This document shows positions 29,068-46,968 of a stretch of 64,000 bases of DNA, piece after piece (the first letter of the stretch is position 1; every line of letters begins with the position of its first letter). Location of the stretch: the NCBI GenBank assembly GCA_025059745.1, contig JANXDH010000004.1:111783-175782 (forward strand), read 5' to 3'. Made by a program: the position numbers and the translations under genes. The notes under the pieces were generated by a model, which saw only the letters and a list, made by a program, of their open reading frames with translations, was not told where the DNA came from and searched no databases. This DNA comes from Aigarchaeota archaeon. Lineage in GTDB: Archaea > Thermoproteota > Nitrososphaeria_A > Caldarchaeales > Calditenuaceae.

Positions 29068-29083
29068 ATGAGTTCGTGTTGAC

Positions 29084-29114: not shown

Positions 29115-29408
29115 GTGACCGCCGTTGAACTGAGGCCGTTGATATCGAAGCTTTTCGAGATCGCGGTTAGACACGCAGAGGCCCTCGATCGGTTAGAGGT
29201 CGGCAGTAAGGAGGCCGCCTCCGTAACATCATCGTTATGCAAGCTCTTGAACGCGCTCGGCAAGTATCACGGACTATTATCAGAGGAAGAAAAGGACCTC
29301 GCCTTGATGCTGAGCAAGACGAGGAGGACCACGAAAAAGCATCACGACGCGGTAAGCAGCGCGAGAGAGCACCTGGAGATCGCCCTCAGGGAACTGGACG
29401 AGATATGA
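29115..29408 (+). CDS. Small helical protein, first gene of the terminase operon
   Basis: 97 aa, GTG start placed 23 nt after a TATA element, so leaderless. The sequence is almost wholly amphipathic helix (LISKLFEIAVRHAEALDRL, DLALMLSKTRRTTKKHHDAVSSAREHLEIALRELDEI), probably a helical hairpin or coiled coil that oligomerises. By position, before TerL, it could be the small terminase subunit, but no helix-turn-helix is evident and I do not recognise the family. Its TGA overlaps the ATG of the next gene (ATGA). Confidence 0.55.
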   Translation: MTAVELRPLISKLFEIAVRHAEALDRLEVGSKEAASVTSSLCKLLNALGKYHGLLSEEEKDLALMLSKTRRTTKKHHDAVSSAREHLEIALRELDEI

Positions 29409-29788
29409 GACCGGAGGAGCTGAGAGCTCTCGACCTGAAACCCGGCAGCAAAATAATCGTCACTTGGTTCGATGCGGCAGAGGTGAGGAAGAAATTTAAG
29501 TCACCGTCCCTACAGGACATGGAGGCAATAACCGAGGTTCAGACGTCAGGTATATTCCTCTACGTCCACGAGGCCCTGCTCTGTCCCGAGATACCGCACC
29601 TAATAATCTACGAGGGCAGATTGAAGGACAACTATCACGTCTATACGTCGATACCCCTGCCGCTCGTGAGAAACATCGAGGTGATCAAGAGGACCAAGCG
29701 GTCCCTGAAGGTGTATCCCAACCTCTACGTGATTAACATCGGCGGGAGCTGCAGCAAGAGAGTGATGAGAGTCAAGTATGGATGTTGA
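29405..29788 (+). CDS. Uncharacterised protein upstream of the terminase
   Basis: 127 aa. The ORF track begins at 29237, but the ATG at 29405 overlaps the previous stop (ATGA), and the sequence from there (MRPEELRALDLKPGSKIIVTWFDAAE) reads as a sensible N-terminus. The fold looks beta-rich: LKPGSKIIVTWFD, TSGIFLYVHEALL, HVYTSIPLPLVRNIEVIK. The opening resembles small SH3-like or DUF-type barrels. It overlaps TerL by 11 nt. Family and function unknown. Confidence 0.55.
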   Translation: MRPEELRALDLKPGSKIIVTWFDAAEVRKKFKSPSLQDMEAITEVQTSGIFLYVHEALLCPEIPHLIIYEGRLKDNYHVYTSIPLPLVRNIEVIKRTKRSLKVYPNLYVINIGGSCSKRVMRVKYGC

Positions 29789-31019
29789 GAGACTCCTCGA
29801 CCCTCCGACCTTTGCCGGCGAGGTGCTCTCGCTTCCTACCTTCCCCTACCAGTCGGAACTCCTAAGGGATCGTTCGAAGAGGATAATCGTTTGTGCGGGC
29901 AGACAGGTCGGTAAGAGCACGGCCGCCGCGATCAAGGCTATCCATTTCACCGTTACTAATCACCATGCGACCACGTTGATCGTCTCGGCCAGCGCCCGTC
30001 AGAGCGGACTGCTTTTTGAGAAGGTGAGGGAGCTGATAACTAGGTCCAGGGTCTTGAAGAGGAGCATCAGATCCCAGAGCGCCACCAAGATCGCCTTCTC
30101 TAACTCCAGCTGGATCATAGCGCTGCCCTGTGGCCGATACGGCTCGACGATCCGCGGTTACTCCGCAGACCTCTGCATAATCGATGAAGCCTCATTTGTG
30201 CCGAGCGAGGTGATAGAGATGGTTGTCCTGCCGATGTTAGCTGCTACGGACGGGACCTGTTGGATGCTCAGTACCCCTTGGGGGATGGACCACACGTTCT
30301 ACAGGGCCTGGACATCTGATGTCTGGAAGCGATATCACTGGCCCTCCAACCTCTCCCCCCTCATCACCGAGTCCTTCCTCTCGGAACAGAGGTCGTTGAT
30401 AGGCGATGAACGATTCAGGGCGGAGTATATGGCTGAGTTCGTGGGGGACCAAGATAGCTTCTTCCCCATAGGACTGCTGCGAAGGTGCGTAAGGGACTAC
30501 CATTCGTCTCTCGAGCCGGGTCTGAGATGGGGCTACGATCCTGGAGGTAGGTCCAGCAGTGCGGCGATAGTCGCGCTGAGACGCGAATGTGAGAAGTGCT
30601 ACGTTGTGTTCAAGAAGACACTGAGAAACGTCCCTTACGTCTCCGTCAATGCCTTGCTCGCCGAATTTCACAGGGAATTCCCCTTCGAGAGACTCGTGAT
30701 AGATGAGACCGGACTTGGCGGGCCTCTCTGCGAACACCTGAAGGACCTCGGAGTCCCCGTGGAGGGCGTTAAGTTGACTCAGGAGAGGGTCAGCGAGATC
30801 TTCTCAAAGCTCAAGATCGCTATGGAGGAGGGGCGGCTATTCCTGCCTCAGGACCTAGAGCTCCTCAATCACCTCAACGCGGTGATCGCTAGACCGGACT
30901 CTAGAGGTGGCTTCCGGTTCGATAAGAGGCCGGGGACCTTCGATGACCTCGCTTACGCATTGGCACTGGCCTATCACAATCTAAATAGCGGAGGGAAGCT
31001 CTACACTATCTCCTTCTGA
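29778..31019 (+). CDS. Terminase large subunit (DNA-packaging ATPase/nuclease)
   Basis: 413 aa. ATPase domain with Walker A VCAGRQVGKSTAAAI near residue 40, Walker B LCIIDEASFVP near 135 and coupling motif WMLSTPWG near 160. The nuclease domain has acidic positions in WGYDPGGRSSSAAIVALR, LVIDETGLGG and FDDLAYALALA. TerL docks on the portal and pumps DNA into the prohead, cutting the concatemer. This is the diagnostic gene of the cluster and appears intact. Its end overlaps the counter-oriented membrane-protein gene by 14 nt. Confidence 0.95.
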   Translation: MDVERLLDPPTFAGEVLSLPTFPYQSELLRDRSKRIIVCAGRQVGKSTAAAIKAIHFTVTNHHATTLIVSASARQSGLLFEKVRELITRSRVLKRSIRSQSATKIAFSNSSWIIALPCGRYGSTIRGYSADLCIIDEASFVPSEVIEMVVLPMLAATDGTCWMLSTPWGMDHTFYRAWTSDVWKRYHWPSNLSPLITESFLSEQRSLIGDERFRAEYMAEFVGDQDSFFPIGLLRRCVRDYHSSLEPGLRWGYDPGGRSSSAAIVALRRECEKCYVVFKKTLRNVPYVSVNALLAEFHREFPFERLVIDETGLGGPLCEHLKDLGVPVEGVKLTQERVSEIFSKLKIAMEEGRLFLPQDLELLNHLNAVIARPDSRGGFRFDKRPGTFDDLAYALALAYHNLNSGGKLYTISF

Positions 31020-31817: not shown

Positions 31818-31835
31818 GAGTCTTAACTTGAGTTT

Positions 31836-32518: not shown

Positions 32519-32525
32519 TGGACCT

Positions 32526-32533: not shown

Positions 32534-32556
32534 TCGAGGGAGTGTTAAGTTGAGTG

Positions 32557-33474: not shown

Positions 33475-33495
33475 GGCCACTGCAGGAGAACTATC

Positions 33496-33916: not shown

Positions 33917-34332
33917 GCAGTACAGTGATAGAGGTGAGGGGTTTGGAGTACCTGATAAGAGAGTTGGAGAGGAGAGGCGGAGGAGACATCATAGAGGCCT
34001 TCCTGAGGGAGATAGCCCGCGAGACAAGCAGGAGGGCCGGACAACTCGCACCGCGCAGAAGTGGCGCTCTCGCGTCTTCTATTTCTTTCACTAGAAGGGG
34101 GAGGACCTCCTACTCGGTGGGTTCATCACTTGAATATGCGCCCTACCTCGAGTTCGGCACCAGACCCTTCATCGTCGACTCTCCAGTCTACGTAACTGGT
34201 GTCGGATGGAGATACATCTACCTTCACCCGGGAATAAGGCCGAGGCCTTATCTGATGAACGCGGTGCGTCTGTCCTTTCACGAGAGACGGAGTGTCTTGA
34301 ACTCGGTGCTCAGTGGGTCGACCAGCAAGTGA
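33913..34332 (+). CDS. HK97 gp10-like head-tail/tail completion protein
   Basis: 139 aa. The central APRRSGALASSISFTRR and YAPYLEFGTRPFIV are diagnostic of the HK97 gp10-like family (tail completion/minor tail). The end LHPGIRPRPYLMNAVRLS matches the conserved PGxxPxPFxxPA segment. It probably acts at the head-tail joint. ATG overlaps the previous stop, and its own TGA overlaps the GTG of the tape measure. Confidence 0.8.
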   Translation: MSSTVIEVRGLEYLIRELERRGGGDIIEAFLREIARETSRRAGQLAPRRSGALASSISFTRRGRTSYSVGSSLEYAPYLEFGTRPFIVDSPVYVTGVGWRYIYLHPGIRPRPYLMNAVRLSFHERRSVLNSVLSGSTSK

Positions 34333-35771
34333 GCGAGCGTTACTCCATAGAGGTAGAGTTCAAGGGCGTCGATGACGTAAGCGATGAGATCAAGTCAGTT
34401 AGTGAGGGACTGAGGAGCATCGGTAGTATCAACGAGGACCTGACCAAGAAGGCATCGGAGGTCCTGAAGAAAGCGAGGGACGAGAAGAGGACCTACAAGG
34501 CGCTGGCCGAGGAGTCTCAGGTCTTTGGTGAGAGAGCGAAGTTCATGGCGGACCAACTGAACACCGTCGCCGGGTTCGCGGGGAAGATCAATAACGTTTT
34601 CACTCAGTATAACACGCTCCAGATCCGGGTGAACACAGCCCAGCTGGCCCTGAACGAGGCGCTCGAGAACCAGAGCAGACTCCTCGCTCAGATCAACTCG
34701 CAGTTCGATAAGCAGTACACAACTATAGAGGAGGCGCTCGAGGGACTGGGAGAGATGCGTGCAGCGTATCTCGAGGCCGGGCAGTCGACGAAGGCGGTCG
34801 ACGAGGCCATTAAGCAGCTTGAGCAGAGCAAGAAGAACGTGGCTAAGGCGTCAAACGAGGTCACGAACGCGCAGCAGCAGATGAACGCGCAGATGGTCAC
34901 TCTGGGGGTTCAGGCGATTGGGTTGGTGCCGCAGTTCATGGAGATGGTCAACTCGCTCAACACGTTCAGGAAGCTCGTCGGAGACCTGCCTTCCCTCCTC
35001 GGTGGCGTGAAGGCAGCGTTCACGGGCCTCCATGCGGCCATGGGTCCTATTGGCCTCATTCTCATCGCGATGGGCGCGATCCTCCCATTGATTATCACAC
35101 ATTGGGATCAGATCAGGGCCGCCCTCGAGGAGGCTGGTAGAGTCGTATGGAACGTATTAGGTCCAGCCCTCGAATGGATTTGGAATAACGTCCTCAAACC
35201 ACTGGGCGAATTCATAGAGGCCAGCTTTAAAAAGGCTCTCGACTCATTGGGCTCTACCCTCAAGTGGTTAGACGAGAACGTAGTCAAGCCGCTCAGTGAA
35301 GGGCTCGATAAGTTCTGGAATGAGGTACTGGTCCCCCTCGGAGAGAACCTCGAGAAGGAGTTCAAGAAGTATTTGGAGGCATGGGTGGACGCGTTTAATT
35401 GGGCGAGGGATCGAATAAAGGAAATATGGGATAAGATCGTCGACGCGATCCGGGGGGCCATTGGTTGGATTAAGGAAAAAATAGACGACATCATTGGGAA
35501 GATCCGTGATGCCTTCAAATGGCTCGCGGATAAACTCGTGGGTAATTCCATCATCCCGGACATGTGGAGGGACATCCGTGATTGGACGGAATGGGGTATC
35601 GGCGAGGTAGAAAAATTAACGGCAGGCATCGGAGGTGATATCATGGGTCCGAAGGTCCTCGGCGGGATAAGCGTCGTCGTGAACGTCAACCAATCGAATG
35701 CGACCGCGGATGAGATAGCCGCGGCCGTATCGCGGGCTCTAATGAAGAACTTGAAGGGGATGGGTAAGTAA
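34329..35771 (+). CDS. Tail tape measure protein
   Basis: 480 aa from GTG 34329, which overlaps the previous stop; the ORF track start at 34206 adds 41 codons that only shadow gp10. N-terminal long coiled coil with Q/E/A/N-rich heptads (residues ~15-220), then a hydrophobic hairpin (LGGVKAAFTGLHAAMGPIGLILIAMGAI). Tryptophan-spaced helical repeats follow (LEWIWNNVLKPLGEFIEA, LKWLDENVVKPLSEG, FNWARDRIKEIWDKI). At about 1.5 A per residue the tail would be near 70 nm (inference). It sets tail length. Confidence 0.8.
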   Translation: MSERYSIEVEFKGVDDVSDEIKSVSEGLRSIGSINEDLTKKASEVLKKARDEKRTYKALAEESQVFGERAKFMADQLNTVAGFAGKINNVFTQYNTLQIRVNTAQLALNEALENQSRLLAQINSQFDKQYTTIEEALEGLGEMRAAYLEAGQSTKAVDEAIKQLEQSKKNVAKASNEVTNAQQQMNAQMVTLGVQAIGLVPQFMEMVNSLNTFRKLVGDLPSLLGGVKAAFTGLHAAMGPIGLILIAMGAILPLIITHWDQIRAALEEAGRVVWNVLGPALEWIWNNVLKPLGEFIEASFKKALDSLGSTLKWLDENVVKPLSEGLDKFWNEVLVPLGENLEKEFKKYLEAWVDAFNWARDRIKEIWDKIVDAIRGAIGWIKEKIDDIIGKIRDAFKWLADKLVGNSIIPDMWRDIRDWTEWGIGEVEKLTAGIGGDIMGPKVLGGISVVVNVNQSNATADEIAAAVSRALMKNLKGMGK

Positions 35772-35793
35772 GTGATGCGTCGCCTCCTTCATC

Positions 35794-35886
35794 GTGGAGA
35801 AAATTGAGGTCTATAACGATATCGACGGCCGCATGGTCAACTTCTTGAAGGTTCTCCAAGATAGGGAGGCCATCCATGCTTCATGA
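35794..35886 (+). CDS. Possible 30-residue peptide after the tape measure
   Basis: GTG 35794 opens a short ORF, EKIEVYNDIDGRMVNFLKVL, ending inside the next gene. It fills the gap between tape measure and the small membrane protein and has good amphipathic character. No clear ribosome site is seen. Weak candidate only. Confidence 0.2.
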   Translation: MEKIEVYNDIDGRMVNFLKVLQDREAIHAS

Positions 35887-36094
35887 ATTGTTTAAGAAAT
35901 GGCGGGAAAGGCTATCCTTCGTCTTCATTTTTACATCATTCTTCATTTTAGTCGACGAGTACGTGAAAGAGGGCTATATCTTCGACCCTCGTGATGTAGT
36001 CGCGCCCTCGATAACACATGAACAATTATTCCTAATATTCCTGATAGCCGGCTTGTTTCTCGGTATGCGTAGACGCATGGTCTTCTTCTCATAA
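35876..36094 (+). CDS. Small two-helix membrane protein in the tail module
   Basis: 72 aa. Helix 1 is LSFVFIFTSFFILVDEYV, a polar stretch EGYIFDPRDVVAPSITHE follows, then helix 2 HEQLFLIFLIAGLFLGM and a basic end MRRRM. It is not recognised. Position beside tape measure and fibre genes could mean an entry or egress role, but there is no motif evidence. Codon choice begins to shift from AGG/AGA toward CGN arginine from here on. Confidence 0.5.
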   Translation: MLHELFKKWRERLSFVFIFTSFFILVDEYVKEGYIFDPRDVVAPSITHEQLFLIFLIAGLFLGMRRRMVFFS

Positions 36095-36100
36095 ATATTT
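36091..36100 (+). promoter_or_regulatory. TATA box of the fibre operon
   Basis: ATAAATATTT lies 21 nt before ATG 36122, giving a leaderless start and an internal promoter for the fibre/hub genes. Confidence 0.5.
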
Positions 36101-36121
36101 AAAAAGAAATAGATTCAGTGT

Positions 36122-36853
36122 ATGAGTAGCCGGGAAAACTATACAGTCCCTCCAATAATTACACCCGCCGATTGGAATCGGTTCGCCTCCCGCTTTCGTG
36201 TACGCGGTACGGGGGGAATATTTTTTACAGGAACCGATACGACTAAAGGGGTCGTCGTTGGAGGTGCACAGCCAGGGTTCGGTATATCGAGTGAAAATAT
36301 GATCGATCTAGGTGTAGGGCAGACGAGGAACGACGAATCGGGGAAAATCGCCTATGCGGTATTCTCTGCGGGCTTGGACATCGTTGGTGTGGCCGTCACG
36401 CCTCCACGGTTAATTACTTTATGGGATAGCGTCGTCATTAGCGGATATGGGGGCCCCTCCTATGCCTTGAGGATTAATAATAGCCGTTCGCCTAACAACG
36501 ACATTCTCTTTCAGGGTCAGGCGGCCACCAACACAGCAACCCTCCGCGACTCGCCCTTCTTCGTGTTCCGTGGAGCGTGGTGGGATGGTGCCCAGTCGAG
36601 GGACCTCGATTATATGGTTAAAATCGTCATGACCGGTACAGGGCCCACGGCCAGGTTGACTTTCGCCCGTTTTATCAACGGTTCCGATCCCTCTCCCGTT
36701 GAACTGGTCGCAATCGCCTCTAATATTGGTAGTGAGGAGACGGCCCTGCTTCTGACCCGAAATATTGGTGGAACCCTCTCGGTAGTGCGCGTACTCCTCG
36801 GCCCGCCCGATAGTGGGGGAACCGGCTTCCGCGTCTTAAGAGTGGTGAATTAA
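36122..36853 (+). CDS. Beta-rich putative tail fibre/receptor-binding protein
   Basis: 243 aa. The start SSRENYTVPPIITPADWNRF resembles the short N-terminal attachment segments of virion fibre proteins. The rest is beta-strand rich with many G/T/S turns (TGGIFFTGTDTTKGVVVGGAQ, VVISGYGGPSYALRI), consistent with a jelly-roll or lectin-like head. There is no enzymatic motif. Arginine codons are 13 CGN to 5 AGR, against about 3 CGN to over 20 AGR in the capsid gene, so this cassette likely has a different origin. Function inferred from location. Confidence 0.5.
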   Translation: MSSRENYTVPPIITPADWNRFASRFRVRGTGGIFFTGTDTTKGVVVGGAQPGFGISSENMIDLGVGQTRNDESGKIAYAVFSAGLDIVGVAVTPPRLITLWDSVVISGYGGPSYALRINNSRSPNNDILFQGQAATNTATLRDSPFFVFRGAWWDGAQSRDLDYMVKIVMTGTGPTARLTFARFINGSDPSPVELVAIASNIGSEETALLLTRNIGGTLSVVRVLLGPPDSGGTGFRVLRVVN

Positions 36854-36865
36854 ACGAGGTGATAG

Positions 36866-37090
36866 GGGTCGCCTAAGGAGGTCGTAATTCGTTTAAGCGA
36901 TGCGCTACTTGAAGACCTCGAACGATGCCTCCACTACATGGCCGAGCAACAGGGTCAGAAGGTAACCGATATGGACAAAACAATCAACGAGCTAACCCTC
37001 GCTCTCATTCGCGGTTGGGTAATTCAGACTATGGCTAATGTCATTCTACCAAAGAGGTATGGTGTGGGGGATGAGGGTCGAGAGAAATAG
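36866..37090 (+). CDS. Possible ribbon-helix-helix protein without a normal start codon
   Basis: The frame opens after a TAG at 36863 and reads SPKEVVIRLSDALLEDLERCL, then a helix ALIRGWVIQTMANVI, which looks like an RHH/CopG-type DNA-binding protein. No ATG/GTG/TTG precedes the VVIRL strand. An SD-like GGAGGT (36877) lies 4 nt before ATT 36887. The first ATG (36938) would remove the strand. So it is either an ATT start or a degenerate gene. It overlaps the start of the hub gene. Confidence 0.35.
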   Translation, partial: GSPKEVVIRLSDALLEDLERCLHYMAEQQGQKVTDMDKTINELTLALIRGWVIQTMANVILPKRYGVGDEGREK

Positions 37091-39017
37091 AGGCGATGGA
37101 TGGGAGGACATCACTGCCAAAACACTTCGGGTAAAATGGGACCTCTCTCAAAAAGATCAGGAAAAACTCGATGCCGAATTTATCCAGAACGTAAACGTGG
37201 GTGAACAAATTCGCATCCGTGAAGATATGGCGAGGGACGTTTTCGCGGATGGCATCCTCGACCTCTACGAGGTGTTCAGTGGTATAGTCTATGAATCAGT
37301 GAGGCAACACCATGGCGGCAACCCTCCACAATGTAACGTTACGGCTTATAGCGAGCTGATACTCTACGACAAGCACTTAGTCTTTAGGTCATACCCGACG
37401 GGGACGAAGGCCGGGGCGATAATCCGCGATTTGGCGTCCCTCGAGAGCAACGTCAACACTTCTAATGTGGACGACGGCCCATCACTCACATCACCATGGC
37501 AGATCGAGAACATGGTGGCCTTGAAGATTATGCAGGACGTAGCCCGCGGGACTAACTACTGGTTGAGGATGAAGCCCGGTAGAGTCCTGTACTTTAAGCC
37601 GAAGACCACGGGCTCCCCCGTCGCTACCCTCGATTCCTCTAAAGTGATCTCGGCCGATTATACTGAAGACCGTTGGAGGTTAAAGAACCGGGTCATATAT
37701 GTAGGGGCTAATGGGCGAGTCCTCGCGGACGTCTCTGAGGGGGCAGGCGACCTACCGATAGTCGTACACGACCCGTTCTTAACCGATGGTGCTGAGGCCG
37801 CACGGAGGGCAAATATCAGGTTGGCCTTGAATAAGGAGTATGGCCGTCAACTCAGGGTCGTGATGCATAGAACCCATTTCGAGTCCATGGATGTAGACCT
37901 AGGGAGCACGATAAGGGTAAACCTGCCATCACTCGGTCTAAATGATGTTGACATGTATCTGGTCGGGATGGAATGCGACCCTCAGAGTCTACAATACACT
38001 CTAACTTTAGGCGGACGGCTTGAGCTATTAGAGGACTTTTTAGATGAAGCCATCGGAGGGGATGTCGCGGGTCGCTTCGGGCCCTCCGTAAGTGTCGCGG
38101 GGGAGGTATCGACGATGAGGTCTAACCTCTTTTTCACTCAAAAGATCATATCGATCACATCGCATAGGTACGTGACGTACCTCAACCGGCCACCCCTCAC
38201 GATCCACGGCGGCCAGAACGTCACTATCAGGACGGATACGGGAGAGGTTGAATTAGCATCCGGCTTCACGACCGGCCATTGTACGATCAGTTTCCTGCCG
38301 CCCACTGAGACCTTCCGTAGGTGGGGTTACGTCGAATGGGTTAGTTTTATGAACCAAGGTAGCGTGAGGGTACGGTTGCTTGACACATCGGGTAATGAGC
38401 TGGCCTCTAAAGACGATCGGGGTTCGGGCCCCTCTCTCACTAAAAGATTGCCGTTGAAGAAGTGGCCCGGCCGGCCTCAGGAATTCACGAGACATCCCGC
38501 GATAAGGAATTGGGGGTCTACTAATACGGCCAACGCTAGCACCTCATTCGCGGGCGTAATATCGGGCTCGTGCATCAGGCTCGCGCCGAGCACATCGGGA
38601 ACGATGGGTGAGATATTCTATAATAAGACGAAAAATTTAGGGCTCAACCTCTCGTGGGCCCGCTATATGAGCGTCTTTTTCCTCGCATTCGTAGCCAATA
38701 CGACGGTAAAAATTAGATTACATACGAACGCAAATAATTATTTTGAGGCGACCGTACCGATAGTTGAGGCCGGCCGATGGAGGGAGTACGTGATATATAT
38801 GAGCACTCTATCGTCATCAGGCTCTCCTAACATGAGCAACATCAACTGGATCAGCATATTGGCGGACTACCCGATCCTCATCGATAGCGATTACGTTTTT
38901 CACCAGTATCCCCGTGGAGAGCTGAGGGTGAGGTTCGAGCTGAGTAGGCCGAACGCCTCGGCCGTCTCACCAAAAATAAGGCGTGTAGTAATAACATATG
39001 AGGAGGTGGTGGTATGA
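37059..39017 (+). CDS. Baseplate hub/tail-tip protein with C-terminal carbohydrate-binding-like region
   Basis: About 652 aa. ATG 37059 is preferred; 37038 and 37071 are alternatives. Residues ~1-330 follow the hub (gp27/gp44-like) pattern: GDGWEDITAKTLRVKW, LYEVFSGIVYESV, VTAYSELILYDKHLVFR, NRVIYVGANGRVLADV and VDLGSTIRVNLPSLG. The C-terminal ~270 residues are beta-sandwich like (NQGSVRVRLLDTSGNELA, FFLAFVANTTVKIRLHTNANNY) and could bind surface sugars. It probably forms the tail tip. Its stop overlaps the next ATG. Confidence 0.65.
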   Translation: MVWGMRVERNRGDGWEDITAKTLRVKWDLSQKDQEKLDAEFIQNVNVGEQIRIREDMARDVFADGILDLYEVFSGIVYESVRQHHGGNPPQCNVTAYSELILYDKHLVFRSYPTGTKAGAIIRDLASLESNVNTSNVDDGPSLTSPWQIENMVALKIMQDVARGTNYWLRMKPGRVLYFKPKTTGSPVATLDSSKVISADYTEDRWRLKNRVIYVGANGRVLADVSEGAGDLPIVVHDPFLTDGAEAARRANIRLALNKEYGRQLRVVMHRTHFESMDVDLGSTIRVNLPSLGLNDVDMYLVGMECDPQSLQYTLTLGGRLELLEDFLDEAIGGDVAGRFGPSVSVAGEVSTMRSNLFFTQKIISITSHRYVTYLNRPPLTIHGGQNVTIRTDTGEVELASGFTTGHCTISFLPPTETFRRWGYVEWVSFMNQGSVRVRLLDTSGNELASKDDRGSGPSLTKRLPLKKWPGRPQEFTRHPAIRNWGSTNTANASTSFAGVISGSCIRLAPSTSGTMGEIFYNKTKNLGLNLSWARYMSVFFLAFVANTTVKIRLHTNANNYFEATVPIVEAGRWREYVIYMSTLSSSGSPNMSNINWISILADYPILIDSDYVFHQYPRGELRVRFELSRPNASAVSPKIRRVVITYEEVVV

Positions 39018-40162
39018 CCGAGTACCTCATCCTCAACCAGGCCCGCACCTACCCGGTCGTATGGGAATATGGGAAGGAGGTGGTTAGCCCAAATAATTTC
39101 ACCATCCCTGTCAACACAGAGCAATCACATTGGTATTTAAACTTTGGTACCAATGTCGGTGCGGAATACTACTACCTGAGCAGTTCTAATCAGTCTTATG
39201 CATACTATAGCTTTAGGACTAGTACGCTTTCTACGAACGCGCAGATCATCGGTTCATTCATTAGGAGGGTAAGAGTCCTATGGGGTTCGGCCGGAGGCGA
39301 TACTCCGACTGTAACTTTAAGCGTGTGGGAAGCAGATCCTTCTACCCTGAATCCCACGAACCGAATTAGAAATTTGGGCCAGTTTACTAGAGGGCCTTCT
39401 GGGGGGCAAAGTTTCACCTGGTCTGTTGACAACCCATTGGATGGTGTCCCGATTACACTTGGAAATGCGTATAGTGTCCGGCTTGGTGACCCGGTCTCCT
39501 ATGAGGCGCCCACTACCCTCTGGTCGCTCGAACTGTATGGCGCTCCCTCCTCCTCTCCAAGCGGTAAATTTACCGCTGCTAAGACAGAGGTTCGATATAC
39601 CACCGATGGTGTGAACTGGGTTACGTACACCAGAAATAATCGCTCATGGGGGGGATGGGAGGTTGAGGTCGTTACCGTCCTCCGCGCGCCAACATCGAGC
39701 GGGACAATTTTCCGTTCGGATGAAGCGTGTAATCTATACGTCTATAAGTCGCAGTCCATACCTACTGGTATTACGTTCCTTCGTGAGTTTCTGAATAATA
39801 CGCAATATAATTTACCAACCACCGCTCCAGGAGTCCAGGTACCATTTCCTAGTGATGAGCAACTAACCTATACCTTCGACTACATCACGACCGCGAATGT
39901 TAACACTCAGATCGCGACTACGCTCTATCCGAGGATAGTCTACGAAAAGAACCCGGTAACCGTGGACATGTTCAACGCCTCCGAGGCCTATCTGATCCGG
40001 CTCGAGTATTTAGCGACGGACACGAGGGTACGGCTGAACGATAGCCCGCTCCAGGAGTTTACGGGTAGCTCGGGCGCGACCACCTTCGACCCACCCCCCG
40101 TAGTGTGGAAACTTGAAAACTTAAGCGGTAGAGTCCGCGCGGTCATGATGGTGCTGGAATGA
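39014..40162 (+). CDS. Putative tail fibre/receptor-binding protein
   Basis: 382 aa, beta-rich throughout with aromatic and T/S-rich strands (NTEQSHWYLNFGTNVGAEYYYLSS, PTVTLSVWEADPST, NAYSVRLGDPVSYEA). The middle segment resembles small carbohydrate-binding or fibronectin-like modules, and the last ~100 residues a tail-tip domain (DSPLQEFTGSSGATTFDPPP). There is no catalytic motif. ATG overlaps the hub stop and its stop overlaps the next ATG (ATGA both ends). Variable fibre genes are expected here. Host-surface binding is an inference. Confidence 0.55.
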   Translation: MTEYLILNQARTYPVVWEYGKEVVSPNNFTIPVNTEQSHWYLNFGTNVGAEYYYLSSSNQSYAYYSFRTSTLSTNAQIIGSFIRRVRVLWGSAGGDTPTVTLSVWEADPSTLNPTNRIRNLGQFTRGPSGGQSFTWSVDNPLDGVPITLGNAYSVRLGDPVSYEAPTTLWSLELYGAPSSSPSGKFTAAKTEVRYTTDGVNWVTYTRNNRSWGGWEVEVVTVLRAPTSSGTIFRSDEACNLYVYKSQSIPTGITFLREFLNNTQYNLPTTAPGVQVPFPSDEQLTYTFDYITTANVNTQIATTLYPRIVYEKNPVTVDMFNASEAYLIRLEYLATDTRVRLNDSPLQEFTGSSGATTFDPPPVVWKLENLSGRVRAVMMVLE

Positions 40163-40458
40163 GGGTACGCATAGAGAACGTTGATTTAGAGAGCGGGCTA
40201 CCCATCGAGATAGCTGAAGCGATTAAGAAGACGGCCGTGCTAGAGGAGAAGGTCAGGACTCTCGAGTCTGAAAAAGAGGCGCTCAATGAAAAACTCAAGG
40301 CCCTTGAGGGGAGGACGACGGCCATCCTACGAGTAGAGGACGAGGTTAACGGCCTCTATCAGAAGATAGCTGCACTTGAGGAGGAAAACGAAGAGCTGAG
40401 GGGGATACTGGAGAAGCTCATCGAGCGATCGCCCACATCCTCTCAAACTCAGAAGTGA
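40159..40458 (+). CDS. Coiled-coil protein ending the fibre operon
   Basis: 99 aa. After a short strand segment (MRVRIENVDLESGL) there are two long heptad-repeat stretches (AEAIKKTAVLEEKVRTLESEKEALNEKLKALE and VNGLYQKIAALEEENEELRGILEKL). It probably trimerises as a fibre stem or chaperone. Its last 41 nt overlap the convergent nuclease gene. ATGA overlap with the preceding fibre gene indicates co-translation. Confidence 0.55.
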   Translation: MRVRIENVDLESGLPIEIAEAIKKTAVLEEKVRTLESEKEALNEKLKALEGRTTAILRVEDEVNGLYQKIAALEEENEELRGILEKLIERSPTSSQTQK

Positions 40459-41002
40459 ACGACCGCGCGACACCGGCGTCATTTATCACCACCACGTTCT
40501 CATCGTTCTCTGCCTCTGCGGCCCTCGAGAAGTTGTAGCTCCCAGTTATCACGATCGTCCCATCGATCACGACGAACTTGTGGTGCATAGAGTTGCTGTT
40601 ACCGTCGAGCTTCACGTCGAGGCCACTATTTCTCAACCTCATGTACTCGGACCCCGTCTGGTTGGCGTTCAGTCTCTCTACCAGCACCCTCACCGTTATC
40701 CCCTTTCGATGCGCGTTTATGAGTGCCTCCGCGAGAGGGTCGCTGGTGAAAGAGAAGACGGCCACTAAAACTGACGAGCTGGCCCTCTCTATCAAGGAGA
40801 TTATCAACCGGTCACACTCTTCGGTCCTCGAGAAACAGACCTCAAGGACATCCCTCTGAACCACCGTGGTAGCGGTGAACCAAGTCTGGGTGGTGGTGAG
40901 GACGACGGTTCTGCTCATCGAAGACGCAGCGCCCGCTCCGATAACGATCCCGACTATCAGTAAGAGCAGCAATAGGGTGACTCTTGACCTAGGGCCTGCC
41001 AC
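40418..41002 (-). CDS. Phospholipase D-family nuclease, membrane-anchored or secreted
   Basis: 194 aa. One N-terminal hydrophobic helix (VTLLLLLLIVGIVIGAGAASS) precedes a single PLD domain with the HKD motif MHHKFVVIDGTIVITGSYNFS and the trailing EAENDENVVVI. One-motif enzymes of this type (Nuc-like endonucleases) dimerise to form the site. The catalytic domain would be outside the membrane. In this cluster it could cut DNA during entry or act on the envelope at exit, both inferences. A TATA-like GTTATATACT lies upstream. Confidence 0.8.
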   Translation of the reverse strand: MAGPRSRVTLLLLLLIVGIVIGAGAASSMSRTVVLTTTQTWFTATTVVQRDVLEVCFSRTEECDRLIISLIERASSSVLVAVFSFTSDPLAEALINAHRKGITVRVLVERLNANQTGSEYMRLRNSGLDVKLDGNSNSMHHKFVVIDGTIVITGSYNFSRAAEAENDENVVVINDAGVARSFTSEFERMWAIAR

Positions 41003-41039
41003 GACTTAACTGAGAGAGGGAGATTAATGAAGTATATAA

Positions 41040-42212
41040 CTACGTCTGGTCAACTCCATCCTCTAGTATCCAACCGAGCTCCCTGAGCATGCGCCTAGCC
41101 TCAGTCCTCGAGATCACAGGCGGGTTGTAGCTGTCACCGCGCGCGGCTAGCAAGATATCGGATATCTTGTACTCTGGGAGCTCTGGCTGGCCCCAGTGGA
41201 GCTCGACCCTCTCAGGGGTTAGCCTGCTGAAGACCTTGGTCTCGATCACGTGCTCTATGTACTCCCTTATCGCCCTCACTTGGTACTCGTTTACTCCTAC
41301 CGCCTCTCTAGCGCTCGCCTCCGTGAAGCCGGGCGTGGTGAAGAGCTTTATCACGGGTGACCTGAGGGCCGCGGTGAAGACGTTCTCGAAGTAGTGATAG
41401 TATTCGAACCTTATCCTCTCCGGAGCCTTTAGATCCTCGACTTCTATCTTCCTGTTGGTTATCACGTCTGCAGCAGGCTCCCTCAGGATCTGCTCGAACT
41501 CGGGTTTGATCTGACTCTCCAGCACCTCATCACCCACATCGAACTTGATGATCCTGCGTGGCACGGCCTTGTCCATGTAGAGTATCAGGTCCCTCCTCAA
41601 CGTCGCCTCGCTATCGAAGACGCTCGGTACGATCCTCCCCCTCCAGTCCCTCTGGGTCGCTATCAACTGATACGCAAGTCCGTACCCCCACGGTGAGGCG
41701 CTGTCTATTCTGTTCCACCTGAAGTGTATCAGCATGTCCGCGGGGACCGTTCTATACTCCACGTGCGAACCGACTTGGATGACAAGGTTGTACCTGACAG
41801 GCTCAAGGGTCTCTAGGTCTACCTCGACGCGCGGGCTACCGTTGAACCACCTAAGCGGCACCCTCTTTAGCGATACAAGCTCATCACCATCGTAGACGTA
41901 CTCGAGGAACGAGTTTCCGGTGAGCAGCATCTCTCTCACTAAGTCGTAAAGCATACTCTTGAGGTTCACGGACTCTACGAACTCCTCTACCCTCTTCTTC
42001 GCACTCGTGCTCCTCGAGGTGACGTAGAACCCAGGGCCGAGCACGGCATAGGCCAGCGTATCGACCGCCAACGCCACCGCCGGATTCCTGTAAGTCTCGA
42101 GGGCCTTTGCCCAGTTAGGCCAATCGCCCTCTATTCCGTCAGAGAAGACCGATACCACCTTCCCACCACTGCTCTGCTTCGACCTACCCTTTATAAGCTC
42201 CATCAGTCTCAA
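41040..42212 (-). CDS. Portal protein, HK97-type
   Basis: 390 aa. Features of the family: NPAVALAVDTLAYAVLGPGFYV near residue 45, LTGNSFLEYVYDGDELVSLKRVP near 95, ADMLIHFRWN, SPWGYGLAYQLIATQRDW and the C-terminal GFTEASAREAVGVNEYQ. The portal dodecamer is the DNA gate at one capsid vertex and the terminase dock. TTG 42212 is 27 nt from a CAAAAATA; ATG 42203 is an alternative start. It is reversed relative to TerL, protease and capsid genes, unusual for this conserved module. Confidence 0.85.
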   Translation of the reverse strand: MRLMELIKGRSKQSSGGKVVSVFSDGIEGDWPNWAKALETYRNPAVALAVDTLAYAVLGPGFYVTSRSTSAKKRVEEFVESVNLKSMLYDLVREMLLTGNSFLEYVYDGDELVSLKRVPLRWFNGSPRVEVDLETLEPVRYNLVIQVGSHVEYRTVPADMLIHFRWNRIDSASPWGYGLAYQLIATQRDWRGRIVPSVFDSEATLRRDLILYMDKAVPRRIIKFDVGDEVLESQIKPEFEQILREPAADVITNRKIEVEDLKAPERIRFEYYHYFENVFTAALRSPVIKLFTTPGFTEASAREAVGVNEYQVRAIREYIEHVIETKVFSRLTPERVELHWGQPELPEYKISDILLAARGDSYNPPVISRTEARRMLRELGWILEDGVDQT

Positions 42213-42216
42213 AGTC

Positions 42217-43674
42217 CTATAGATTGACCGCGCGGTTAGTATTTTTGACGTCCTGACCCCTCTCCCATATCAGGTAGACGGTGGGCAGTGGCCTCATCTT
42301 CAAGGCCTCGGCCATTAGATCCAAATCCGGTCCCCCCTCGATAAGGAGCCTCATGACCTTCTTCCTCGACTTGAAGTAACCGAAGACCTTGACCAAATAG
42401 TCGTAGACCTCCCTCCTCCTGCCCTCATCCATCCTCCTTAGTACCGATAGATTATATCTCTTCGACGCCATCATGCTCAGGTCAAACCCCCTCTCCGCGA
42501 ACCATTTAGAGGCCTCTTGGTAGAGGGGTGGATTTTCGGAGACCCTCCTCATGCCTGCGTGCTCGAAGAAGGGGTTGTAGCGGGCCATGACTGCCAACGT
42601 CTCAACGTACTTCACGCCCACCCGCGGTAGTGTCTCGCGGACCAGCCTCACCCCCAATCCGATGCCCCTGAACTTTGGAGCTACCACGACCCTCGCTATC
42701 CTCCTGAACTCTCTACCAAGAAAGTCATAATATCCCCTCCTGTCAGAGACGTACAACCTCTTCAGCCAAGGTAAGGCCGTGAAGCGCCCGCTCACGACGC
42801 TGGAGCACATCGTGTAGACTATCACACCAACGACGTCTCCGTTATAGACGGCCTTGAAGACGTCTGTTACGTAACCAGGCCTCCTAGAGAGGTAATGGAA
42901 GCGCTCCAATGCCTTGTAGTCGTTCATGTCTCCCCGAGCGATGTAGGTCGATGATATCAGGCTACAGGTTCTTGGGGAGCAACTCAACCTCTTTATCTCC
43001 GCACCGACCTCACCGAACTTCTTCCTTATGAGGAGGGTGGGGTTCAGGTCGTAAAGAACGTCGTCATGCGTCGTGGCCACCAATACGGTCTTTCCCCTTT
43101 TCCTCGCGACCTTCTGGAGCAGGTAAGCGACTACCTTCGCCGTATCTCTGTCGAGCGTTGAGGCGAACTCGTCTAGGACCCAGACCCCTGCGTCCGAGTC
43201 AAGGAGCCTCGCGATCCTGTACCGGTACCTCTGACCATCGCTCAACTCCTTGTACCTCCTGATGAAGAGCGCAGCCTCGTTCAGGCCCGCCATACTCAAC
43301 TTCTCGATGGCATCGGAGACGTCCCTCCCCACACCGTGTATCAGAACCTCGTTTGGGTCGATTTCTATTGATCCAGCCTCGAGGACTCTCCCGAAAGACC
43401 GGTCTTCACTCAACGCCCTCGCCAACTCCCTCAGGAGTATAGACTTACCGCTGCCCGACTCACCGGTCACGAATATCACGTCACCCGGAAAGACCTCGAG
43501 CTCAAAGTCCTTGTAGACTATGAACCTCCTCTCCTCGTCGAGGCCGAGACCGAAGGCATCGGCCACAGCCGCCACTCTCTTGGTAAACTTAACGCGAGTC
43601 GAGAAATCCCTCGATAGCTTCAACTTTAAGAGGGGTACCTTCTCAACTATGGGGAGCTTAAGGGATATAAACAT
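42217..43674 (-). CDS. ABC-type ATPase fused to a GNAT acyltransferase domain (COG2401-like)
   Basis: 485 aa from ATG 43674, 25 nt from a CAAAAATA; the ORF track start at 43809 runs into the divergent gene. The ABC half has Walker A VTGESGSGKSILLRELA, signature ELSDGQRYRYRIARLL, Walker B VWVLDEFAS and H-loop VLVATTHDDVL. The C-terminal half has GNAT features: VGVIVYTMCSS, IARVVVAPKFRGIGLGVRLVRETL and ARYNPFFEHAGM. There are no membrane segments, so it is not a transporter. The acceptor substrate is unknown; a nucleic-acid-modifying role like phage Mu Mom is a hypothesis. Confidence 0.75.
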   Translation of the reverse strand: MFISLKLPIVEKVPLLKLKLSRDFSTRVKFTKRVAAVADAFGLGLDEERRFIVYKDFELEVFPGDVIFVTGESGSGKSILLRELARALSEDRSFGRVLEAGSIEIDPNEVLIHGVGRDVSDAIEKLSMAGLNEAALFIRRYKELSDGQRYRYRIARLLDSDAGVWVLDEFASTLDRDTAKVVAYLLQKVARKRGKTVLVATTHDDVLYDLNPTLLIRKKFGEVGAEIKRLSCSPRTCSLISSTYIARGDMNDYKALERFHYLSRRPGYVTDVFKAVYNGDVVGVIVYTMCSSVVSGRFTALPWLKRLYVSDRRGYYDFLGREFRRIARVVVAPKFRGIGLGVRLVRETLPRVGVKYVETLAVMARYNPFFEHAGMRRVSENPPLYQEASKWFAERGFDLSMMASKRYNLSVLRRMDEGRRREVYDYLVKVFGYFKSRKKVMRLLIEGGPDLDLMAEALKMRPLPTVYLIWERGQDVKNTNRAVNL

Positions 43675-43699
43675 CCAAGACCGATTACCCCTCACTCGG

Positions 43700-43707
43700 T
43701 ATTTTTG
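43700..43707 (-). promoter_or_regulatory. CAAAAATA TATA element of the ABC-GNAT gene
   Basis: On the minus strand CAAAAATA lies 25 nt from ATG 43674. On the plus strand TCAAATATA (43722-43730) lies 23 nt before GTG 43754 of the protease, so this 80-bp gap is a divergent promoter pair. Confidence 0.55.
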
Positions 43708-43753
43708 CTCAAGCAACATCATCAAATATAACGTGAGGGAAGTGGCTAGGCAT

Positions 43754-44704
43754 GTGGAGGAGTCCCTCAGGATAACTGGAGTCTTAGCAACCCCACGCGT
43801 CAGCCGCAACGGCAGACTCTACCTACCGAAGGAGCTCGAAGACGCTGTGAAGAGGACGAACGGTCGAGAGATACCGGTCTATTGGGAGCACGTGAGGGCA
43901 GAGAGGGCGATAGGGAGGGCCAAACTGATCTGGAACCCGGAGAAATTACAGGTTGAGTACGAGGCGATAATAGAGGACCCTCGGGCCGAGAGCGTGATAA
44001 AGTCGGCCCCCATGAAGGTGAGCCTAGGAGCCGACTACGAGAGGATAGATTACCTCGATGACCTAGCGATAGTGAGAGGCCTTCGGTTCAGGGAGCTGAG
44101 TCTGGTCGCGGTACCTGGAATACCTGAGGCTGACCTGAGGGTAGTAGAGGCACAAATAGGCATAAGCGAGCGCGTGGTACCGTTCGAGGAGACCCCAACG
44201 ATAGACGCGAGCATGAGATGGGACAAGGAGCACGCACTCGCCTCCCTCAGGAGGTGGGCCGCAAAGGGCGACTCCAACGATATCGACTGGGTTAAGTACG
44301 CGAGGGGGTTTGCGTGGTACGATGACTCTAACCCTGAGGACCCCCAGTCATATAAGCTCCCTCACCACGTAGTTATAGACGATCAGCTATACGTGGTCTG
44401 GAGAGGAGTGGTCTCAGCTATGGCCCACCTGATGGGCGCCAGGGGGGGCGTGGACGTTCCTCAATCCGATAGGAGGGGAGTCTACTCGCATCTTGCCAAA
44501 CATTACAGACAGTTCGGTAAGGAGGTCCCATCTTACGAGAGGCTTGCCGAACTCATAAGTCACGTGAACTCGGCCGAGGAGAAGGGTAACTGGAGTGCAT
44601 CATTATCTAAGTTCGAAGAGTTCTGTAGATCGATAGGCCTATCTGGGACCCCCCGGGAGGTTATCGTCCTGGACTTCATGGGTGAGAAGGTGAGGATCAG
44701 GTGA
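43754..44704 (+). CDS. Capsid maturation (prohead) protease with C-terminal scaffold-like domain
   Basis: 316 aa. I place the start at GTG 43754, 23 nt from TCAAATATA; the ORF track's earlier start overlaps the divergent gene. VYWEHVRAERAIGRAKLIW has a likely catalytic histidine, and MKVSLGADYERID the serine, with FRELSLVAVPGIPEADL as the final strand, matching the S78/HK97 protease fold. The C-terminal ~120 residues (FAWYDDSNPEDPQSYKLPHH, RGVVSAMAHLMGARGGVDVP) form a domain often fused to these proteases. It trims the capsid precursor during maturation. Confidence 0.75.
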   Translation: MEESLRITGVLATPRVSRNGRLYLPKELEDAVKRTNGREIPVYWEHVRAERAIGRAKLIWNPEKLQVEYEAIIEDPRAESVIKSAPMKVSLGADYERIDYLDDLAIVRGLRFRELSLVAVPGIPEADLRVVEAQIGISERVVPFEETPTIDASMRWDKEHALASLRRWAAKGDSNDIDWVKYARGFAWYDDSNPEDPQSYKLPHHVVIDDQLYVVWRGVVSAMAHLMGARGGVDVPQSDRRGVYSHLAKHYRQFGKEVPSYERLAELISHVNSAEEKGNWSASLSKFEEFCRSIGLSGTPREVIVLDFMGEKVRIR

Positions 44705-44711
44705 CCTTTCT

Positions 44712-44719
44712 CAAAAATA
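44712..44719 (+). promoter_or_regulatory. CAAAAATA TATA element of the capsid gene
   Basis: CAAAAATA lies just past the protease stop and 23 nt before ATG 44743, giving the capsid gene its own leaderless transcript. Confidence 0.6.
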
Positions 44720-44742
44720 TCGAACGCGATGTTATGGTATCG

Positions 44743-45849
44743 ATGAACGAGACTAAGGCCCAACAAAGGGACGACGTCAGAGAGGTGAAGGTAACGCTAG
44801 ACGCCACGGAGCTCCAGAAGGCTCTAGCAGAGACCCTCACGAAATACCTCCAAGAACACAGAAGGATCAACTCCCCGACCACCGAGAGACGTATAGTCGG
44901 TGAGGACTCCAAGGACGACGGGTTAGTGAAGCTCTACGAGTGGGCGAAGAGCGCGGTCAACGAGTCCGTACTGGGGGTGCCGAGTACTTTCCATTACATC
45001 GTCGATCTGATCCATGAGATGCCCGGCCTCTTCTACGATCCTACGCAGTTCTTTGACGTGAGGGAGATACCGGAGGGCTCAGATTCAGCACGGTGGTTCA
45101 TCATCCCTTTAACAACCTACTCGGAGACGCCAGAAGGGTCGGATGTAGCAGAGGTCTCACAGACCATCACATCAGTCTCTACTACACCCATAGAGAGGAG
45201 CACTAGGCAGGTACTGAAGTACAGCGACCTCGAGAACGCGACCATAGATTTGATCGCGGGCATAACTAGGAGCATGACCTTGGGTGCGTTGAGGGACTCG
45301 TTCAAGAGGGCCGTCGACACCATCTCTCAGGACTCAAATATCTCGACGATCTATGGTGACGGCTCGGTCGACTCCGAGTCCGAGGTGACGGCTGAGATGA
45401 AGCTCTCCCCCTCCACCCTCGCGTCTGCCAGGAGAAGACTCATGGAGGGAGCCGGTATAGATCCAGGTGTTGAGGTAGCGGCCTTGATCTCCCCGAAGCA
45501 GTACACGGACCTCCTGATGCACCAGGAAGTGAAACAACTCTTGAGCTATGGTAGTGATGAACCGGTGAAGAGGGGCCAGATACCCACAATCTACGGCATA
45601 AGGTTGTATCCCTTCGATGTTCCATCAGGTACCGGCGCTGGCACCCCACCCGCTACGACTTACAGGGCGATCGTCTTCCACTCGCCGTCAAACGTTATCG
45701 AGAGACCCATCGGTCTCGCCATCAAGAGGAAATTGCTGATAGAGAACGTGAGGGACGTGAAGAAGAGGCAGATCGACATGGTGGCCACCTATAAAGACGC
45801 TGTAGCCGTGAAAGACAAGAAGAGGGTAGTGCGCATCATTACTGCCTGA
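44743..45849 (+). CDS. Major capsid protein, HK97 fold
   Basis: 368 aa from ATG 44743. The ORF track start (44701) would place the promoter inside the coding region. The first ~60 residues (REVKVTLDATELQKALAETLTKYL) form a charged helical delta-like segment. The mature part begins near VPSTFHYIVDLIHEM and includes VSTTPIERSTRQVLKYSDLENATIDLIAGI (E-loop/spine) and LEVAALISPKQYTDLL-type P-domain strands (VAALISPKQYTDLLM). The next part, GIRLYPFDVPSG, fits the A-domain. Confidence 0.8.
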   Translation: MNETKAQQRDDVREVKVTLDATELQKALAETLTKYLQEHRRINSPTTERRIVGEDSKDDGLVKLYEWAKSAVNESVLGVPSTFHYIVDLIHEMPGLFYDPTQFFDVREIPEGSDSARWFIIPLTTYSETPEGSDVAEVSQTITSVSTTPIERSTRQVLKYSDLENATIDLIAGITRSMTLGALRDSFKRAVDTISQDSNISTIYGDGSVDSESEVTAEMKLSPSTLASARRRLMEGAGIDPGVEVAALISPKQYTDLLMHQEVKQLLSYGSDEPVKRGQIPTIYGIRLYPFDVPSGTGAGTPPATTYRAIVFHSPSNVIERPIGLAIKRKLLIENVRDVKKRQIDMVATYKDAVAVKDKKRVVRIITA

Positions 45850-45883
45850 TACGCCACCACATTCACTTTCATTTATCTCTCAA

Positions 45884-45891
45884 CAAAAATA
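45884..45891 (+). promoter_or_regulatory. CAAAAATA element of the connector operon
   Basis: CAAAAATA followed by TATTATTTTTAAATTA lies 28 nt before ATG 45920, in the short gap after the capsid gene. Confidence 0.5.
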
Positions 45892-45919
45892 TATTATTTT
45901 TAAATTAATATAATAAGAG

Positions 45920-46258
45920 ATGACGTACGCAAATCTTGAACGAGTAAAGGCGGTGTTGAGGATAACGGGGAACGAGGAGGACAACGTACTCTCAACGATA
46001 TTGCAGGAAGTAGACGCGGAGATAAACACGATACTGATGAAGTATACGCAGTTACCCATAACGGACGAGAGGATCAGGACTATCTTGGCAGGTATCGAGG
46101 CAGAGTGGGCTGGAGGCGTCTACAGGTCCTACGTGGAGCCCTCCGTGATGACCTACCCAGAGCACCCACCGCGCGAGCACGTCCTCATAACCAACGCCAA
46201 GAGGAGGCTAAGGGAACTGATAGAGGTACACCTGAAGAAGAAGGTGGACACTATATGA
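45920..46258 (+). CDS. Head-tail connector protein, gp6-like
   Basis: 112 aa, all-helical. YANLERVKAVLRITGNEEDNVLSTILQEVDAEINTIL has the pattern of HK97 gp6-like connectors (a short D/E-rich helix pair then a long helix), and RIRTILAGIEAEWAGGVYRSY matches the conserved end. Position directly after the capsid gene is canonical. It joins the portal to the tail. Stop and next ATG overlap (ATGA). Confidence 0.7.
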   Translation: MTYANLERVKAVLRITGNEEDNVLSTILQEVDAEINTILMKYTQLPITDERIRTILAGIEAEWAGGVYRSYVEPSVMTYPEHPPREHVLITNAKRRLRELIEVHLKKKVDTI

Positions 46259-46536
46259 GGGAGGTGATCTACGACCTGAGGGAGTTCGCTCTCTCCGTGA
46301 GGGGGAGGGAGGAGTCGGTGCGCATGAGTTTCTACCACCAGAGGGATGGTGAAGTCGAATTAGTCAAGGCGACGCTCTTCTGTCCTCTGGACTCCCATGT
46401 CCTCGTCTGGGAGGACGAAGGGGCCTTAGTGCCTCTACATGACTCGAGGGCATATGTAGAGTACGAGCTGAACGTCCTGAGGAGAATAAGGGACGAACTC
46501 GGTACCGAGCCGAAGAGGGGTAGGTGGGAGGGGTGA
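46255..46536 (+). CDS. Probable head completion/stopper protein
   Basis: 93 aa from ATG 46255, which overlaps the connector stop; the ORF track starts upstream in an unrelated segment. Predominantly beta (EVIYDLREFALSVRGREESVRMSFYHQ, SHVLVWEDEGALVPL) with a C-terminal helix, consistent with small stopper or adaptor proteins. Recognised from size, place and secondary structure only. Confidence 0.45.
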   Translation: MREVIYDLREFALSVRGREESVRMSFYHQRDGEVELVKATLFCPLDSHVLVWEDEGALVPLHDSRAYVEYELNVLRRIRDELGTEPKRGRWEG

Positions 46537-46709
46537 CACGGGAAGAGCTTTACAACTTCCTCCTCAAGGTCATGAGGGGCATCAACGGCAGGATCTACAG
46601 GTTGAAGTGCGACAGGCACAACTCGTCGCTCGAGATTACGGGATATCTACTTCGATGCGGGTGCGTCATTCCTGAAGATACCGATCAGGGTCGACGCGAA
46701 GAAAGTTGA
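46533..46709 (+). CDS. Small protein ending the connector operon
   Basis: 58 aa from GTG 46533, which overlaps the TGA of the previous gene; 46524 is an upstream alternative. It has a helix (REELYNFLLKVMRGINGRI) followed by LKCDRHNSSLEITGYLLRCGC, three cysteines and a histidine that could bind a metal. The convergent zinc-finger gene overlaps its last 44 nt. Function unknown. Confidence 0.4.
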   Translation: MTREELYNFLLKVMRGINGRIYRLKCDRHNSSLEITGYLLRCGCVIPEDTDQGRREES

Positions 46710-46968
46710 ACTTCGTCTCGGTCAACATCCTCTTCTTCTCCCTCTCCTCCTTTCTGTATGGGTTGCGCCTCAATCCCCTCAATACGGTCTTGCAGCAAGG
46801 GCACAGCTTCCTCCCCCTACTATCGACGAAGTAGTACCCGACCTCATCGGGGAAGCTCACCTCACAGAACGCACAGTAGTTGTAGTCCCTTCCGTTGCTC
46901 TTGAACCTCGCTGATAATAAAACTTCCGGCATCACCCTACATATCTCATAGCAGATCTTCAGAACCAT
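46666..46968 (-). CDS. Small zinc-binding protein
   Basis: 100 aa from ATG 46968. CAFCEVSF and CPCCKTVLRGL give two C-x2-C knuckles around YYFVDSRGRKL, a zinc ribbon-like fold. Two further cysteines lie near the N-terminus (ICYEICRV). The basic tail (RRNPYRKEEREKKRM) suggests nucleic-acid contact. A regulator of the cluster is possible but unproven. Confidence 0.5.
   Translation of the reverse strand: MVLKICYEICRVMPEVLLSARFKSNGRDYNYCAFCEVSFPDEVGYYFVDSRGRKLCPCCKTVLRGLRRNPYRKEEREKKRMLTETKFNFLRVDPDRYLQE

Follow-up and report, generated by a model that had tools for sequence, protein, structure and literature searches.

A coupling of a GNAT acyltransferase with an ABC ATPase is known from bacterial phages, namely from proteins of the COG2401 type (PHROG 293, 886 and 11143) in phages such as pT24, SSU5, nickie, RHEph10, Jace and LE4. 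For this arrangement, with pT24 named, section 3.4.7 of PMC7824862, citing Iyer et al. (2013), predicts an uncharacterized acyl modification of DNA bases. No experimental test of the predicted DNA acylation was found in the literature searched. Among other GNATs, Mom of phage Mu (PF25680; structure 8bv8) is the product of a late gene; it has no ABC ATPase, and it carries a PRNSES loop with S124, the residue mutated in the inactive form 8bv8. TmcA and NAT10 are RNA cytidine acetyltransferases that combine a helicase-type ATPase and a GNAT in one polypeptide, and RimI-type cellular GNATs are universal host proteins lacking an ABC domain. According to PMC5512222, two further phage-encoded GNAT families are believed to have protein substrates. 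Here we analyzed a 64,000-nucleotide stretch of DNA from a hot-spring archaeon of the Aigarchaeota, referred to below as the window, which encodes an ABC ATPase-GNAT fusion beside viral head genes.

The ABC ATPase-GNAT protein and its operon

The ABC-GNAT gene occupies positions 42217 to 43674 of the minus strand and encodes 485 amino acids, with an ATG at 43674 and the end of the open reading frame at 42217. A longer reading from a TTG, extending to 43809, is a mechanical frame extension only. The ABC ATPase domain (residues about 48-222; 43009..43533) matches Pfam ABC_tran (1.3e-12) and, in fold searches, ABC nucleotide-binding domains, and the GNAT acyltransferase domain (residues about 232-380; 42535..42981) matches Acetyltransf_1 (1.5e-4); both matches pass the curated cut-offs. 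Walker A (TGESGSGKS, residues 70-78; 43441..43467), the ABC signature (LSDGQ, residues 144-148; 43231..43245), Walker B (LDEF) and H203 are complete and conserved in 46 homologues, with G71, S73, G74, G76 and K77 of Walker A and the entire signature being invariant. The CoA P-loop of the GNAT domain (RGIGLG, residues 336-341; 42652..42669) is also conserved in the 46 homologues, R336 and G339 without exception. The homologue alignment and the AlphaFold model further delimit a C-terminal helical extension (42220..42534), the last part of which is a conserved Y467-L-x-W470 strand. With 46 homologues as input, the full-length AlphaFold model reached a pLDDT of 90.2 and a pTM of 0.85. The fusion that the sequence-only reading had placed at the same coordinates is thus borne out by the domain matches, the intact motifs and the model, and we regard ABC-GNAT as a real, functional-looking gene belonging to a widespread viral family.

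In both profile and fold searches the ABC domain resembles transporter-type nucleotide-binding domains, which are its best matches, and many phage records label such proteins as ATP-binding subunits of ABC transporters. This role is hardly credible for the window protein, because its ABC domain is joined to a GNAT and, among the matches listed of 157 NCBIfam families, its scores stay far under the cut-offs of the transporter families. In addition, no permease gene adjoins ABC-GNAT in the window, and no conserved permease neighbour was found in the loci of its archaeal relatives. A separate DNA-binding domain was not seen in the protein. PADLOC gave generic ABC matches to mad3/mad8 only, which we did not read as a defence system.

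ABC-GNAT is the first gene of a minus-strand unit and is followed by the genes for the portal protein (41040..42212; PHROG portal, 1.2e-6; alternative ATG start at 42203) and a PLD-family nuclease-like protein (40418..41002; Pfam PLDc_2, 3.9e-31; NucT/DrmC-like) with an N-terminal hydrophobic segment. At the junction, the ABC-GNAT stop and the portal start are separated by 4-13 bases on the same strand. Sequence inspection revealed a TATA-like box, CAAAAATA (43700..43707, minus strand), probably an archaeal TATA box with a leaderless ABC-GNAT transcript, since its centre lies only ~29 bases 5' of the ATG. The gene had previously been assigned a promoter of its own. The box is indeed present, but because the portal and PLD genes follow right after ABC-GNAT on the same strand, it would be the promoter of the whole portal operon and not of ABC-GNAT alone. 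In the sister proviruses L043 (8823-9380), L044, L045 and L064, the gene 3' of ABC-GNAT codes for an SNase-family nuclease that likewise has a hydrophobic stretch at its N-terminus; a possibly exported nuclease, PLD or SNase, would here sit beside a possible DNA-modification gene.

Divergently from this unit, the plus strand encodes a presumed prohead protease (43733..44704), which has no Pfam or PHROG match and shares 47 % identity with an L061 gene in the protease position beside the major capsid protein (MCP), and the MCP itself (44701..45849; PHROG major head protein, 2.2e-5). The large terminase of the same provirus (29778..31019; PHROG, 2.6e-42; Pfam Terminase_6N) and the tail tube, tape measure and tail genes are located on the plus strand at 29.2-40.5 kb of the window. 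Judged by this gene content, the region around ABC-GNAT is a head-tail provirus. The apparent operon with the portal gene, together with the packaging or virion modules in which the relatives lie, agrees with the earlier proposal that the protein is part of the virion programme. The head-tail genes start just after a tRNA-Pro gene (28992-29067; region 28992-46800). No integrase was recognized among the genes checked in the provirus at 28992-46800, and no exact repeat of at least 12 bases was found between the provirus flanks tried. The window provirus has no ParB gene; a weak match lies ~58 kb outside the window.

Distribution in archaeal genomes and viruses

ABC-GNAT matches were found in 49 of 201 related genomes, the weaker ones being partial or restricted to the ABC domain, and the distribution of the gene among related archaeal genomes is patchy. 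When the loci around full-length copies were read from whole genomes, 18 of 20 contained head-tail genes, that is, structural genes matching, or clustering with, the terminase, tail tube, tape measure, portal, protease, MCP and other such genes of the window. As for the remaining two, L046 is syntenic with these 18 loci. In L062 (G014:C1:379000-395000), ABC-GNAT is accompanied by tyrosine-type integrase and primase/helicase-like genes, their functions being read from the sequences, but not by virion genes, and this element is possibly a satellite or remnant. Among the loci found in a scan of genome contigs, two lacked a clear viral gene, L065 and L068, the former of which retains a neighbour of the 'c5' family described below. 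Homologues lying mainly far from viral genes and having a known host role were looked for, and this pattern did not occur; by their neighbourhoods, the relatives are overwhelmingly viral. An alignment-based scan of viral contigs yielded 312 stretches encoding ABC-GNAT relatives (a single-protein scan of the same contigs yielded zero), but this collection is viral by selection and would be circular as proof, and the viral assignment was drawn from the whole-genome loci only. Two or three ABC-GNAT copies per genome were seen for some of the archaea (G200, G140 and G107), implying several proviruses in one host.

The sequence-only reading had suggested looking for COG2401 proteins next to portal genes in other archaeal viruses. 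Their place in the packaging or virion module was confirmed, but the usual neighbour is terL and not the portal gene. In 62 of 117 clustered archaeal viral loci, which are mutually related so that the counts are not independent events, terL lies directly upstream of ABC-GNAT on the same strand, and in 13 of the 117 a tail gene (c3) precedes it. The gap between terL and ABC-GNAT is at most 21 nt in 59 of the 62 pairs, and 21 pairs overlap by 4 bases. A 929-aa frame in G101 that resembled a terL-ABC-GNAT fusion is a frame overlap only, the matches lying in different frames. In three sister proviruses a ParB gene is found ~4 kb from ABC-GNAT.

The 4-base overlaps with terL and the operon with the portal gene would also fit an accessory ATPase for packaging or head assembly that performs no acylation and uses its GNAT domain just as a scaffold or to sense a ligand. 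We consider such a role very improbable. The best-conserved positions of the family include the CoA P-loop and the putative substrate residues, which argues for catalysis, and most tailed viruses package their DNA without such a protein.

In archaeal viruses, terL and ABC-GNAT are associated with a further small family, termed 'c5', which has no Pfam match. Its members are about 115-180 aa long with the consensus GDLIEVEWLDAS...VPVKSWGIFLG and include a homologue in the window (29237..29788, plus strand; profile search E 4e-10) as well as L156:645-1049 and L065:9235-9615. In 63 archaeal viral loci, 'c5' is located just upstream of the TerS/TerL genes, usually ~2 kb before ABC-GNAT. The 'c5' relative in L065 directly adjoins ABC-GNAT, with no virion genes visible, and this side-by-side position suggests that the two genes form a functional pair.

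Relatives in bacterial phages

In total, 78 phage records match the window protein, with E values down to 2e-56 and homology in both domains. Its match to Tenacibaculum phage pT24 covers residues 57-348 (tblastn E 2e-17). The ABC and GNAT domains are encoded by separate neighbouring genes in SSU5, nickie and the Rhizobium phages, while Jace, Pmp13, LE4, EastWest and NHagos encode shorter fusions of ~360-400 aa; COG2401-type genes of either form usually follow a ParB_N gene. A ParB_N gene is found immediately or almost immediately upstream in SSU5, nickie, RHEph10, BUCTxx99 (Stenotrophomonas), Jace, Pmp13, LE4, EastWest and NHagos, and a terminase lies nearby in most of these phages. Vibrio vB_VmeM-32, pT24 and P12024S have no annotated ParB neighbour.

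The COG2401-type phage proteins share with the window protein the same two domains and the invariant H, Y, R and G, and they are encoded near a terminase in several lineages. Conversely, the window protein shows their characteristic features, with intact ABC motifs, a fused GNAT bearing a CoA P-loop, and homology to pT24. Unlike the phage members, the archaeal form is a long fusion extended at its C-terminus, is coupled to terL or portal and has no adjacent ParB gene here; the long form and the terL/portal coupling are its distinctive points.

In RHEph10, the ABC and GNAT genes flank a Tad2-like anti-Thoeris gene (L174:6615-6917; PF11195, E 5e-23), so that the three may belong to an anti-defence island. 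Two 'DNA methyltransferase' labels in these neighbourhoods look wrong: for nickie gp158 (L009:4322-5014) Pfam shows a weak ParB_N match only (E 0.0028), and the RHEph10 gene at L174:4899-5561 was noted as a ParB-like nuclease.

Comparison with Mom and other GNATs

Since the sequence-only reading had brought up Mom, the C-terminal half was modelled and compared with Mom and other GNATs. The GNAT domain alone (model mc0ab18beb1dc; pLDDT 90.2) found its best match among 350,542 PDB chains in 8bv8, Mu Mom S124A (E 7.6e-6, prob 1.00), and its CoA loop is intact. The lead of Mom is small (7.6e-6 versus 1.4e-5 for small-molecule/protein GNATs), with agmatine, Naa60 and other acetyltransferases coming next. 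TmcA and NAT10 were found at ranks 17 and 35, and RimI, Ard1 and Naa60 were also matched. In a viral structure library, the full-length model matches the Mom protein of Salmonella phage FSL SP-031. In the PDB it matches TmcA (2zpa) over both domains, whose order is the same in the two proteins, with low overall TM-scores.

The TmcA match over both domains and the presence of NAT10 in the GNAT list would be compatible with a modification of RNA or tRNA, in which the ATPase would open the RNA at the expense of ATP for the GNAT to acetylate one of its bases, for instance against a tRNA-targeting defence; the Tad2 neighbourhood in one phage points the same way. We judge this improbable, as the ATPase of TmcA is of the helicase type and not an ABC ATPase, the TM-scores are low, and nothing obvious connects the neighbouring packaging genes with RNA. 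At the sequence level, no relation was found between the window protein and TmcA or NAT10, whose substrate is RNA.

At the profile level, hhalign gave 93-94 % for archaeal RimI and 83-92 % for Acetyltransf_4, but 5-27 % overall for Mom (11-27 % for a combined Mom profile). As Mom itself is a very divergent GNAT (about 4 % for Mom versus RimI), the profiles do not settle the matter in either direction. No match to PF25680 was obtained for the window protein at E 0.1. On these profiles and on its canonical RGIGLG loop, which differs from the PRNSES loop of Mom, membership in the Mom family was rejected.

A different picture emerges at the residue level. When 15 divergent members from archaea and bacterial phages were aligned, with identities as low as ~20 %, only H260, Y261 (42892..42897, minus strand), R328 (42691..42693, minus strand) and G339 proved invariant. 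All 34 Mom sequences compared have the HY pair (H58-Y59 in Mu) and R111. R328 precedes R336, the start of the CoA loop, by eight residues, as R111 precedes P119, the start of the Mom loop, an equivalence given by register from the loop and not by superposition; hhalign aligns HY on HY between the family and Mom but shifts the arginine. The HY pair occurs in 45/45 and the arginine at -8 in 44/45 ABC-GNAT family members, compared with 1/60 and 0/60 cellular archaeal GNATs scored alike, and both are absent from the RimI set (0/26 each). We consider this signature, which is a resemblance, the strongest new evidence that ABC-GNAT and Mom may act on similar substrates.

The main rival explanation is protein acylation, directed at a virion or packaging protein (portal, terminase or capsid) or at host proteins, for example a chromatin or RNA-polymerase subunit, with the ABC domain as a chaperone-like switch. 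RimI-type GNATs, with which the domain shares a generic GNAT core and CoA loop, are its closest profile, and RimI, Ard1 and Naa60 recur among the fold matches. Co-transcription with portal or terL would fit the modification of a structural protein equally well, and the two other phage-carried GNAT families provide a precedent. We nevertheless hold protein acylation to be rather unlikely, because the HY and R(-8) residues are missing from the RimI set, ParB and Tad2, encoded nearby in phages, suggest roles in DNA transactions and anti-defence, and no structural neighbour is constant, the gene lying beside terL, portal, protease-MCP or tail genes. RimI-type GNATs also differ in lacking the ABC domain and in being universal host genes, in contrast to the patchy viral ABC-GNAT family.

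A predicted DNA-base acyltransferase linked to packaging

On balance, we lean towards the window protein being a viral ATP-gated DNA-base acyltransferase that acts late, before packaging. The same activity is proposed here because section 3.4.7 of PMC7824862 predicts DNA-base acylation for the pT24 family and the window protein matches pT24. Viral DNA that has just been replicated would most likely be acylated at an exocyclic amine of its bases (adenine N6 or cytosine N4) late in infection, just before or during packaging, so that the injected genome would resist host restriction. ATP would induce head-to-tail dimerization of the ABC domains, by which the DNA is clamped and distorted. The GNAT domain would hold acyl-CoA by its P-loop and acylate a flipped base. 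H260-Y261 and R328 would be placed at the substrate site in the manner of Mom, and ATP hydrolysis would then release the DNA. In this scheme we infer the DNA substrate, the acyl donor, the target base, the clamping of DNA and the protection from restriction.

Several lines of evidence argue for DNA acylation. In the structural comparisons, Mu Mom is the top match of the modelled fold, and TmcA and NAT10, ATPase-coupled cytidine acetyltransferases of nucleic acids, are matched as well; the predicted substrate residues carry the HY/R(-8) signature common to Mom. The genomic context is consistent with this reading, with DNA-binding ParB_N, terminase and Tad2 in phages and terL or portal in archaeal viruses, and the earlier prediction for the pT24-containing family in PMC7824862 was made independently. 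By analogy with Mu mom, the presumed late expression of ABC-GNAT fits base hypermodification. Against DNA acylation stand the GNAT profile, which is nearer to RimI-type protein acetyltransferases than to Mom, the narrow margin in the fold search, the canonical CoA loop unlike PRNSES of Mom, the missing ParB gene in the window provirus and the transporter-like ABC domain, beside which no separate DNA-binding domain was seen.

The earlier proposal of an ATP-dependent DNA-modifying enzyme acting during packaging is therefore upheld in part: the Mom fold match and the module context speak for it, but RimI-type profiles are stronger, the lead of Mom is narrow, and the timing comes solely from gene order. 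It does not stand as a new idea, since DNA-base acylation by an ABC ATPase-coupled GNAT was already predicted in section 3.4.7 of PMC7824862, and the window protein belongs to the family for which this prediction was made.

The activity of the ABC-coupled GNAT has been a prediction on paper since about 2013. The residues H260, Y261 and R328 shared with Mom, the conserved place in the packaging module and the hundreds of archaeal viral contigs with the gene now provide handles for it. More tentatively, and with the odds somewhat against it, a large group of archaeal tailed viruses (>300 contigs in one scan) could hypermodify its DNA with an acyl base by means of a Mom-like GNAT that is gated by an ABC ATPase and coupled to terL or portal of the packaging motor. 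If true, this would be a DNA modification chemistry so far undescribed in archaeal viruses and would define the mechanism of an ATPase-gated DNA acyltransferase. Archaeal tailed viruses would then shield their genomes by acyl base modification, which would bear on how they evade archaeal restriction.
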